Positions 35,095-37,471 of a stretch of DNA of 64,000 bases are shown piece after piece; within the stretch, counting starts at the first letter, position 1; each line of letters begins with the position of its first letter. A program made the position numbers and the translations under genes. The notes beneath the pieces were generated by a model. It made no database searches. It was given only the letters and a program-made list of their open reading frames with translations, and was not told the DNA's origin. The stretch is taken from contig NZ_ATUR01000003.1 in the NCBI RefSeq assembly GCF_000420305.1, positions 186,001 to 250,000 on the forward strand, read 5' to 3'. The stretch comes from Novosphingopyxis baekryungensis DSM 16222 (GTDB lineage Bacteria; Pseudomonadota; Alphaproteobacteria; Sphingomonadales; Sphingomonadaceae).

Positions 35095-35835
35095 TTACAG
35101 CATGGCCATGCCGCCGTTGACGTGCAGCGTCTCGCCGGTGACATAGCCGGCTTCACGGCTCGCTAGATAGGTGACGGCAGCGGCAATGTCCGCGCCTTCG
35201 CCCAGGTCGCCTGCGGGAATCTTGGTCAGCAGCGCGCTTTTCTGCGCGTCGGGCAGACCGTCCGTCATGTCGGACCGGATGAAGCCGGGCGCCACGCAAT
35301 TGACGGTGATGCCCCGGCTCGCCAGCTCCTGCGCCAGCGCCTTGGACATGCCGACCATCCCGGCCTTGGCCGCCGCATAATTGGCCTGCCCCGGATTGCC
35401 GGTCGCGCCCACGATGCTGGTGATGGAGACGATGCGCCCGAAGCGCGCCTTCATCATCGGACGCGCAGCGGCGCGGCACAGACGGAACGCGGCCTCCAAA
35501 TTGACGCGCAGCACATCGGACCATTCCTCGTCCTTCATGCGCATCGCCAGATTATCGCGCGTGATGCCGGCATTGTTGACCAGGATATCGAGCTTGCCGA
35601 GCTTCTCCACCGCAGACGGCACCAGCGCGTCCACCGCAGCGCCATCGGACAGGTTGCACGGTAGGCTGACATGGCCATCGCCTTTCAGCGTACCGCGCAC
35701 CTCGTCCAGCTTGCCCTCCCGCGTGCCGGACAGCGCAATCGTCGCGCCCTGCTCGGCGAGCGCGGCGGCGATGGCAGAACCGATACCGCCGCTGGCCCCG
35801 GTTACAAGGGCGGTCATGCCGCTAAGGTCGAACAT
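35095..35835 (-). CDS. fabG: 3-oxoacyl-ACP reductase FabG
   Basis: The 246-residue classical SDR has TGASGGIG (12-19) for NADPH binding, NNAGITRDNLAMRM, the catalytic serine region SITSIVGATGN and NYAAAKAGMVG with the Tyr/Lys pair. It ends in HVNGGMAML, as bacterial FabG does. It reduces beta-ketoacyl-ACP. The ATG at 35835 has AGGAG at 7 bases. The ATG two codons earlier (35841) overlaps the GxxExxY stop but is too close to the ribosome-binding site. The gene now sits behind the GxxExxY insert rather than directly behind fabD. Confidence 0.97.
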   Translation of the reverse strand: MFDLSGMTALVTGASGGIGSAIAAALAEQGATIALSGTREGKLDEVRGTLKGDGHVSLPCNLSDGAAVDALVPSAVEKLGKLDILVNNAGITRDNLAMRMKDEEWSDVLRVNLEAAFRLCRAAARPMMKARFGRIVSITSIVGATGNPGQANYAAAKAGMVGMSKALAQELASRGITVNCVAPGFIRSDMTDGLPDAQKSALLTKIPAGDLGEGADIAAAVTYLASREAGYVTGETLHVNGGMAML

Positions 35836-35837
35836 GG

Positions 35838-36263
35838 TCATTCTCCTTTTTGATTCACGCGAAGTCGCGAAGACGCGGAGGGCGTGTAATTGTTCACGAT
35901 ACGGCGCAGCCCTTCCTTGAGGGTCGCGCCACCAAAATTTACGAGCAGCCCGAGCGGTTGTCCGGTAAGCTTCAGGTAGGTCAGCAATTGTTTTGCATGC
36001 GCCGCATGCAGTTTTTCAACCGATTTGATTTCAATGAGTAAAATGTTGTCGACCAGCAGGTCGATCCGAAACGCTGCGTTGAACGACAATCCCCGATAAT
36101 CGATATCGACCGGCTTTTGCCGGTCAATCCTGTGGCCGCGCCGTTCCAATTCAGCAGCAAGGATCATTTCATACACGCTTTCCAGCAAACCCGGCCCAAG
36201 ATCGCGATGCAAATGAAACGCAGCGTCGACGACATCTTCAGCAATTGCCTCAAGGTCGGACAT
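35838..36263 (-). CDS. GxxExxY protein (PD-(D/E)XK-like)
   Basis: The 141-residue protein has the defining motif GPGLLESVYE (about 23-32), and then IDLLVDNILLIEIKSVEKL, with the D...ExK arrangement of PD-(D/E)XK nucleases, and QLLTYLKLTGQPLGLLVNFG. The family is widespread, often single-copy and placed at random in genomes; its biological role is unknown. The gene is bracketed by imperfect 27-bp inverted repeats (35854-35880 and 36264-36290). The left repeat codes for its C-terminal tail (SASSRLRVN), so the end of the protein is partly repeat-encoded. It lies between fabD and fabG, two genes that are usually adjacent, which indicates insertion. Confidence 0.92.
   Translation of the reverse strand: MSDLEAIAEDVVDAAFHLHRDLGPGLLESVYEMILAAELERRGHRIDRQKPVDIDYRGLSFNAAFRIDLLVDNILLIEIKSVEKLHAAHAKQLLTYLKLTGQPLGLLVNFGGATLKEGLRRIVNNYTPSASSRLRVNQKGE
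35854..35880. repeat. Left 27-bp inverted repeat of the GxxExxY unit
   Basis: The sequence starts TTCACGCGAAGTCGCGAAGA. Its reverse complement matches 36264-36290 at 22 of 27 positions. It falls within the last codons of the GxxExxY gene. Confidence 0.85.
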
Positions 36264-36290
36264 CTTCGCGCCTTTGCGTCTTCGCGAGAA
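36264..36290. repeat. Right 27-bp inverted repeat of the GxxExxY unit
   Basis: The sequence ends GTCTTCGCGAGAA and pairs with 35854-35880. It fills the whole gap between the GxxExxY start codon (36263) and the fabD stop codon (36292), leaving no room for a separate promoter. Confidence 0.85.
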
Positions 36291-36291
36291 C

Positions 36292-37242
36292 CTATATACC
36301 CTTAATCAGCGCCTCGATATCGTCCATCCCCTGCACGCTCAGCACCTGAGCATCGGGCGCGATGCGGCCGACCATGGGGCCGACGACCTTGCCGCCGATC
36401 TCCACGAAATACTCTGCGCCCGCGTCGTGCATGGCGGCGACGCTTTCGCGCCAGCGCACGCGGCCCGTCACCTGATCGACAAGGAGGGTGCGGATCACGT
36501 CAGGGTTCGACGTCGCCTCCGCCGTGACATTGGCAAAGAGCGGCACGTCCGGCGCAGTGATCGCGGTATCGGCCAGCGCCTTTTCCATCGCCTCGGCAGC
36601 GGGCTGCATCAACGGGCAGTGGAACGGCGCGGAGACGGGCAGCAGAACGCCGCGCTTGATGCCCCAGCGCTCCTTGTCGTCCTTCACCATGGCCACCGCC
36701 CGTTCGATCGCGCCCTTATGGCCGGAAATCACGACCTGGGTGGGATCATTATCGTTCGCGACGGTACAGATCTCCCCTTCCGCCTCGGCAGCTTCGGCAA
36801 GGTCTTCGGCTTTGGCGACATCGGCGCCGAGCAGCGCGGCCATCGCACCCTCACCCACCGGCACGGCACGCTGCATCGCCTGCCCGCGCAGTTTAAGCAG
36901 CCGTGCGGTTTCGCCCAGCGGGATCGCTCCGGCGGCGCACAGCGCGCTATATTCGCCCAGCGAATGCCCGGCCACGCAGCCGGCGACATCGGCCAGCTTC
37001 ACGCCGCCCTCCTTCTCCAGCACGCGCAGCACGGCCAGGGACAGCGCCATGATCGCGGGCTGGGCATTTTCGGTGAGCATCAGCTCATCCGCCGGGCCGT
37101 CCTTCATGAGCGCGAACAGCTTCTGGCCGAGCGCGTCGTCGACTTCCTCGAACAGTTCGCGGGCATGGGGGCTGGCGGCGGCCAGGTCTGCGCCCATGCC
37201 GACCTTCTGGCTGCCCTGTCCGGGGAAAATGAATGCGCGCAT
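36292..37242 (-). CDS. fabD: Malonyl-CoA:ACP transacylase FabD
   Basis: A 316-residue acyltransferase with FPGQGSQKVGMG at the N-terminus, QPAIMALS, the nucleophile GHSLGEYSA (S94), and VSAPFHCPLM supplying the histidine. It loads malonyl units on AcpP. It is the first gene of the leftward fab cluster, which continues with fabG, acpP and fabF after the GxxExxY insert. Confidence 0.97.
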   Translation of the reverse strand: MRAFIFPGQGSQKVGMGADLAAASPHARELFEEVDDALGQKLFALMKDGPADELMLTENAQPAIMALSLAVLRVLEKEGGVKLADVAGCVAGHSLGEYSALCAAGAIPLGETARLLKLRGQAMQRAVPVGEGAMAALLGADVAKAEDLAEAAEAEGEICTVANDNDPTQVVISGHKGAIERAVAMVKDDKERWGIKRGVLLPVSAPFHCPLMQPAAEAMEKALADTAITAPDVPLFANVTAEATSNPDVIRTLLVDQVTGRVRWRESVAAMHDAGAEYFVEIGGKVVGPMVGRIAPDAQVLSVQGMDDIEALIKGI

Positions 37243-37387: not shown

Positions 37388-37471
37388 TTTACCTTCTGAC
37401 GCAGGACGTCAGCGATTTCAGGCTGCCGCTTTACCTTCTGACGCAGGACGTCAGCGATTTCAGGCTGCCGC
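37388..37471. repeat. Two perfect tandem copies of a 42-bp unit
   Basis: Bases 37388-37429 are repeated exactly at 37430-37471. The second copy contains the last codons and stop of the acyl-CoA dehydrogenase gene, so the first copy is a duplicated gene end plus downstream sequence. Perfect identity indicates a recent duplication. Confidence 0.95.

Follow-up and report, generated by a model that had tools for sequence, protein, structure and literature searches.

Homing endonuclease genes are small nuclease genes that occupy recurrent sites in related genomes, and the intervening sequences of 23S rRNA have complementary ends. In one article (PMC4990558) such an intervening sequence, 428 nt long with one small ORF, is called a selfish element. 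Among the systems closest to the locus analyzed here are the REPINs and their RAYT partner genes; in the published account (PMC3116915), REPINs are inverted doublets with a spacer that are capable of forming hairpins, occur in many copies and in several types per genome, and have a gene for a nuclease-type partner nearby. In the open PubMed Central literature we found no published function for GxxExxY proteins, the mentions seen being incidental, and no published description there of the arm-gene-arm unit or of the arm sequences reported below. One published pipeline assigned a GxxExxY domain to a place that a second tool annotated as cas4 (PMC8934634).

The window is the whole stretch of DNA that was analyzed, 64,000 nucleotides of Novosphingopyxis baekryungensis DSM 16222, and all coordinates are those of the window unless otherwise stated. 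A GxxExxY gene lies there between fabD and fabG and is bracketed by inverted arms. On balance we lean toward the reading that it is one copy of a widespread chromosomal miniature mobile unit (arm, GxxExxY gene, arm; about 440-480 bp) that works like a REPIN-RAYT system with a Cas4/RecB-like nuclease, that nuclease being the putative mover of the unit. The features concerned are the following.

35095..35841, minus strand: fabG, the downstream neighbor, whose first ATG overlaps the stop codon of the unit gene as ATGA
35838..36263, minus strand: GxxExxY protein gene, 141 aa, PD-(D/E)XK nuclease fold (TIGR04256, PF13366, alignment of n = 50, AlphaFold2 model)
35854..35880, plus strand: 3′ arm, the inverted copy, TTCACGCGAAGTCGCGAAGACGCGGAG, within the 3′ end of the coding sequence
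35854..36290, minus strand: entire unit, arm to arm, 437 bp; in the unit alignments displayed, cross-site homology stops at the outer arm ends
36264..36290, minus strand: 5′ arm, TTCTCGCGAAGACGCAAAGGCGCGAAG, immediately preceding the ATG
36292..37242, minus strand: fabD, the upstream neighbor, co-directional (ORF list; FabD searches)

A preliminary description of this DNA had reported a pair of 27-bp inverted repeats (35854-35880 and 36264-36290) with 22 of 27 bases in common, one of them coding for the tail of the protein and the other filling the gap to fabD. Re-alignment bears this out: the two arms are identical at 22/27 bases when inverted, the 3′ arm is translated as part of the tail of the GxxExxY protein, and 27 of the 28 bases between its ATG and the fabD stop are the 5′ arm. 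Each arm is composed of an 8-bp unit, roughly CRCNRAGN. The 22/27 match was not reached in any dinucleotide shuffle of this region of 1.1 kb (n = 200), and when the window was divided into 58 tiles of 1.1 kb the sole tile reaching 22 was the one that contains the arm pair. The octamer motif (two mismatches or fewer) occurs in the window at the two arms only, with 0.27 occurrences expected. A chance repeat at 35854-36290 is thus rejected by the shuffles, the window tiles and the octamer scan, as it is by the mock intervals given below. In the whole 3.06-Mb genome (labeled G000) the arm pattern, with up to three mismatches allowed, has four matches, each with one mismatch, and a reversed control has none; these four form two inverted pairs, the fabD-fabG unit and a geneless 181-bp pair at G000:C2:744-924. 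Elsewhere in the window a 42-bp stretch is present twice in tandem (37388-37471, copies starting at 37388 and 37430), and its second copy overlaps the 3′ end of an acyl-CoA dehydrogenase-like ORF that begins at 37460.

A QxxxY motif marks nucleases of the Cas4/RecB type, and Cas4 proper also has cysteines that bind an iron-sulfur cluster. At E 0.001 the only profiles matched by the gene of the unit are TIGR04256 (129 bits, cut-off 35) and PF13366 (PDDEXK_3; 128.3 bits, cut-off 22), and the unit contains no transposase gene. In an alignment of 50 sequences G25, E28 and Y31 (the G-E-Y motif) and D68, E78 and K80 are invariant, as are H19, Q92, N109 and F110, with Y96 present in at least 90%; Q92 and Y96 form a QxxxY motif. 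The PD-(D/E)XK core that had been attributed to the protein is therefore intact (D68, with the E-x-K at E78/K80). The AlphaFold2 model has a pLDDT of 91.5, and its best structural match is SSO0001, which we take to be a Cas4 (Z 9.4, rmsd 5.1, 110 aligned). Lower matches (Z 8.1 or less, in a range that the tool calls common and that may reflect no more than a shared arrangement) are to restriction-type folds, the Wolbachia Cin/Cid nuclease domains, Hjc resolvases, Dna2 and AdnAB. Foldseek alone is weak here (best E 0.012), the single hit obtained when solved structures were searched by sequence has E 0.19, and PADLOC gave weak hits to RTasPDDEXK and Cas4. The translation of the window's GxxExxY gene has no cysteine.

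Among the genomes of the host family, the Sphingomonadaceae, TIGR04256 is present in 67/298 (66 above the curated cut-off, the remaining genome of the set having a match under it) and in 36/96 genera. Arms were scored by aligning the upstream flank locally against the reverse-complemented downstream flank for 87 of the 92 gene hits, after exclusion of fragments, cut flanks and repeats of the same upstream stretch. Own arm pairs of these 87 units score 25.1 on average, against 13.3 for swapped partners and 14.9 for the best of 5000 permutations; in 81/87 the inverted arms score higher than the 99th percentile of shuffles, and 6/87 fall below the arm threshold. Mock intervals in the same loci (n = 339) have a mean of 10.9 and a maximum of 23.5, and 78/87 units exceed their 99th percentile. 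Two strict octamers are found on both sides in 62/87 units, and in the wrong orientation in 0/87. In genomes with several units, 36/39 units match their own arm better than any other partner within the genome, and so the match is more than a genome-wide arm type. The arm sequence is thus not one fixed 27-mer; it varies between units, and the two arms of a unit stay matched.

These complementary arms lie on either side of a gene, and most units are oriented like the upstream ORF (80/87, by a simple choice of ORF), as might be expected if they formed a stem in the transcript that is then processed, in the manner of the 23S rRNA intervening sequences. The mismatches between arms show no sign of selection for such a stem, G-U not being preferred to C-A: 52 vs 50 in 67 units (p 0.92) and 108 vs 95 in all 87. 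Rfam gives one match, far below the gathering score, and the unit sits outside rRNA, between fabD and fabG. With no G-U preference and no adequate Rfam match we set the RNA stem aside, and an element acting at the RNA level is very improbable. Transcription that continues from the upstream gene probably accounts for expression of the GxxExxY gene itself.

The preliminary description had proposed a search for repeat-gene-repeat units in other genomes, and such units are found outside the family as well as within it. One scan gave at least 580 relatives of the GxxExxY protein. From 80 public-genome loci, 41 were picked by hand as not being named sphingomonads, and 39 of these have enough flank to be scored. 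Their own arms have a mean of 22.4, swapped arms 12.0 and the best of 5000 permutations 15.0; 30/39 lie above the 99th percentile of shuffles and 9/39 fail the arm threshold. These loci include records titled Verrucomicrobia, Chloroflexi, Planctomycetota, Acidobacteria, Desulfobacteraceae and a cyanobacterium, and an octamer of the CRCNRAGN kind is common to most of their arms. In one record titled Arthrobacter (L159) the protein is 64% identical to the sphingomonad one, and that record may be mislabeled.

Searched with one tblastn query each, a plasmid collection has matches in 8 of 72,556 records and a phage collection in 0 of 50,697. This near absence from both with a single query leads us to reject recent spread by plasmids or phages, and it fits a chromosomal, REPIN-like life. 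In six plasmid-collection records, arms from Sphingomonas, Bacteroides, Bernardetia and Gemmatirosa align at 20.5-24 and those from Treponema weakly (12). The arms of the Prevotella nigrescens locus from that collection (L152) do not align (11), and its tandem units look, by eye, direct and not inverted. In two related contigs of a viral collection both arms are the same 36-bp run of TACTTAAAATT units, and arm scores of 17, 28 and 49 were obtained for three further contigs of that collection. Long AT-rich inverted arms made of tandem units flank the GxxExxY genes of L340, L341 and L342 in the viral collection.

With TACTTAAAATT arms in the viral-collection contigs and octamer arms elsewhere, the inverted tandem architecture seems to be better conserved than the motif. 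A tentative extension of the mobile-unit reading, to which we would give somewhat less than an even chance, is that these units constitute a class of mobile DNA of their own. Its sole protein would be a Cas4/RecB-like nuclease that recognizes the shape of a hairpin or cruciform and not a fixed sequence, its arms would be rewritten from each other, and its geneless hairpins would be carried in trans. Arms that are rewritten from each other would be free to drift, from CRCNRAGN octamers to TACTTAAAATT runs, while the architecture and the nuclease stay.

Among 776 pairs of units that match by blastn, homology does not extend beyond the unit in 254; the site labels differ in 215 of these pairs, and both members of the remaining 39 are unlabeled. 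In the four unit alignments displayed the match ends at the outer arm ends. L045 and L049 are units at two places in one genome; they agree at 76% over 468 bp, and a 1-nt indel of one arm has its mirror image in the opposite arm. The unit is discrete, with the arms as its ends. The earlier suggestion of a small mobile unit thus stands as to discreteness and as to occupancy, which varies at orthologous sites (below); against it, no movement was observed, and the recognition of the ends by the unit's own protein that was suggested with it is putative. The proposed comparison of empty and filled sites did not fix the insertion exactly: the junctions compared are too diverged for any target-site duplication or exact insertion point to be called. 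At the empty junctions of the genus site described below, stop and start abut, and the filled junctions carry extra bases outside the arms.

The 87 family units include 27 that follow fabD, 16 that follow a korB-like gene and eight that follow a saccharopine-dehydrogenase-like gene (the last two names being a reading of the translations). On a tree built from 107 columns the fab-site units cluster (5 changes, against a shuffled mean of 23.3), and for the korB-like site the starred branches of that tree force at least four changes. Distances among fab-site units correlate weakly with those of FabD (Mantel r 0.34; 6/5000 permutations as high) in the 22 of 27 names that entered the test, four lacking fabG in the stretch and one having been filtered out earlier. 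The 30 closest FabD loci comprise 21 with a short gap before fabG, six that hold a unit and three that are not resolved; one of the short gaps (L114, genome G252), without a GxxExxY unit, contains a different hairpin repeat, of the GCCGGCGAAAGCCGGCAT type. A set of 20 further relatives was chosen for not having the unit in the fabD-fabG gap. One of these gaps (L131, genome G154) keeps an apparent solo 3′ arm. In L144, L145 and L146 other sequence of 639-655 bases separates the fabD stop from the fabG motif, and in two of them it resembles, by eye, the start of a methyltransferase gene.

Site clustering, the FabD correlation and variable occupancy indicate that the location is in part old and has been entered or lost repeatedly. 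The order fabD-GxxExxY-fabG is thus not fixed; fabD-fabG is a recurrent, partly inherited site.

Variation in occupancy can be followed at one site in the genus of genome G043, where a stretch around one unit of G043 is matched in 80/80 genomes. Fifty loci were read, the 30 best matches of the search and 20 that were chosen, half of them for resembling geneless pairs, and 46 gave both flanks; with loci partly picked by hand, the following counts of states are not frequencies. Fifteen are empty, with a gap of 45-54 bases between fixed edges; 15 are geneless pairs (212-219), six have the gene (527-531), one has a truncated gene (335) and nine hold other inserts (220-1254). In the truncated one (L317) both arms are present and the GxxExxY gene looks internally shortened. 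The nine other inserts (L297, L298, L299, L300, L302, L303, L304, L306 and L310; 220-1254 bases) are without detected arms; the site may attract insertions in general. The gene forms have CACRAAG-type arms and the geneless pairs CGC-type arms, so these geneless pairs are not simple deletions of those gene forms.

At octamer position 5 the two arms agree in their majority letter in 14 of the 15 geneless pairs, and the remaining pair is a tie. On a quick flank tree at least five changes are required for the pooled arm type (5 A, 10 G) and three for the orientation of the spacer. Thus the arm type at this site changed on both sides together, and spacers were inverted. The interior of the geneless C2 pair of N. 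baekryungensis is inverted in the congener G001, and the arms of the pair differ from those of G001 on both sides together (by eye). Homogenization of arms and inversion of spacers are the two signatures that are reported for template switching between inverted repeats (PMC8604942), and both the matching of arms and the inversion could arise passively in this way. The extreme form of this idea is that the units are nothing more than passive quasi-palindromes, in which template switching keeps short repeats matched and to which the nuclease has no tie. The two signatures at the genus site agree with it, but it leaves unexplained why inverted arms flank most GxxExxY genes, why an octamer is shared, and why geneless arms are linked to the gene (below); we give it next to no credence.

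The six GxxExxY genes at the genus site have dN/dS values of 0.05-0.18, with many dS over 1, which indicates purifying selection on the protein. Such selection raises the question of whether the nuclease and the arms serve the host, as partners in a chromosomal function such as hairpin processing, repair or defence, inherited mostly vertically, often lost and with little mobility. The chromosomal location of the units, with their near absence from plasmids and phages, would agree with this, as would the correlation of fab-site units with FabD and the 80/87 units that are co-directional with the upstream ORF. It accounts poorly for genome G108, which holds eight TIGR04256 gene matches and 172 arm hits, for units at differently labeled sites that are homologous only within the unit, for the four or more forced changes at the korB-like site, and for the repeated changes of state at the genus site. 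A host-serving system of little mobility is therefore unlikely in our estimation.

Arms also occur away from the genes. The arm motif CRCNRAGNCRCNRAGNCRCNRAG has 1187 hits in 88/298 family genomes, against 19 for the reversed control. Strict arm hits are found in 56/67 gene-bearing genomes vs 32/231 others; they are absent from 11 of the 67, and 15 of the 32 genomes with arms and no gene match have at least five. When two arms are subtracted for each gene copy, extra arms are still present in 43/67 gene genomes vs 32/231 others, and none of 5000 within-genus shuffles of gene presence reaches 43 (maximum 39). Y1_Tnp, the RAYT domain, shows no such association: extra arms are present in 13 of the 39 genomes with it and 62 of the 259 without it, and 2330/5000 shuffles are as high. 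The genome of N. baekryungensis has no Y1_Tnp match. Geneless arm pairs thus track GxxExxY within genera and not Y1 transposases. On the same grounds, no within-genus link and no match in the host genome, we reject a RAYT as the mover, yet genomes with Y1_Tnp average more extra arms (8.54) than those without it (2.71).

The association extends to the rest of the phylum, where the units' own arms are still counted and the gene set includes one match under the curated cut-off. Outside the host family 34/56 gene genomes have arms vs 21/278 others. In the gene-rich family f32 alone the difference is not significant (30/45 vs 14/29, p 0.15, own arms still counted), and outside both the host family and f32 it is 4/11 vs 7/249 (p 0.0005, own arms still counted). 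The highest number of arm hits in the phylum table, 118, belongs to G522, a genome that is 94% complete and has no GxxExxY match.

Genome G066 has 100 arm hits, 97 after overlaps are merged for the pair statistics, and these form 31 plus/minus pairs within 500 bp, two of them of gene-unit length. Apart from these two, the outer lengths are 61 to 274 bp, and some pairs are nested in pairs. Both arms are of one type in 28/31 pairs, where 10,000 shuffles give at most 25. Among 13 geneless interiors, 31 of the 78 comparisons lie above the 99th percentile of mononucleotide shuffles (10 of 20 stretches were used), and many G066 interiors therefore appear to be diverged copies and not unrelated fillings.

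Because arms exist without the gene, also in some genomes that lack it, the gene might be a passenger, cargo between arms that are moved by an unrelated transposase or a host process; the higher mean of extra arms with Y1_Tnp would agree. However, arms bracket GxxExxY genes across phyla, geneless arms follow GxxExxY within genera as Y1_Tnp, the transposase domain examined, does not (2330/5000), and N. baekryungensis has its arms without a Y1_Tnp match. We regard a passenger gene as improbable.

We envisage the mobile unit working as follows. In single-stranded or supercoiled DNA the arms would fold into a hairpin or cruciform, on which the small Cas4/RecB-like GxxExxY nuclease may act by structure-specific cutting. 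Its action on this structure could thereby spread or maintain the unit that encodes it and also, acting in trans, the geneless pairs, both being copied or moved in the way proposed for REPINs and their RAYTs. During replication, template switching from one arm to the other would keep them matched and sometimes invert the spacer, and the co-varying arms may therefore record such switching over long times. GxxExxY genes are common, and the arms give this family an anatomy and a testable job.

The unit shares one small ORF and complementary ends with the 23S rRNA intervening sequence, but lies outside rRNA, has a nuclease in place of the S23 protein and shows no sign of selection for pairing at the RNA level. 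Like homing endonuclease genes it brings a small nuclease gene to recurrent sites in related genomes; unlike them it lies between genes, has arms of its own and occupies many different sites, with no intron or intein seen. Its inverted ends, gene-bearing and geneless forms, and homology that stops at the ends are those of MITEs and small insertion sequences, and the geneless interiors appear partly related within one genome (G066), but it has neither a transposase gene nor a fixed terminal sequence, and no target-site duplication could be called. The protein resembles Cas4/RecB/Dna2-type nucleases in its D and E-x-K core and its Q92/Y96 pair, and perhaps in its overall fold (SSO0001, Z 9.4), and differs from Cas4 in having no cysteine for an iron-sulfur cluster, in its location outside a CRISPR locus and in being bracketed by inverted arms. 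With REPINs and RAYTs, as PMC3116915 describes them, the unit has in common all the properties listed at the outset; it differs in that its partner is a PD-(D/E)XK nuclease and not a Y1 (HUH) transposase, and in that each unit has its own privately matched arms of tandem octamers. The unit would work like REPIN-RAYT but without the defining enzyme of that family. The REPIN-RAYT way of life, in which many non-coding hairpins accompany a nuclease gene, may thus have arisen a second time, around an unrelated nuclease fold.
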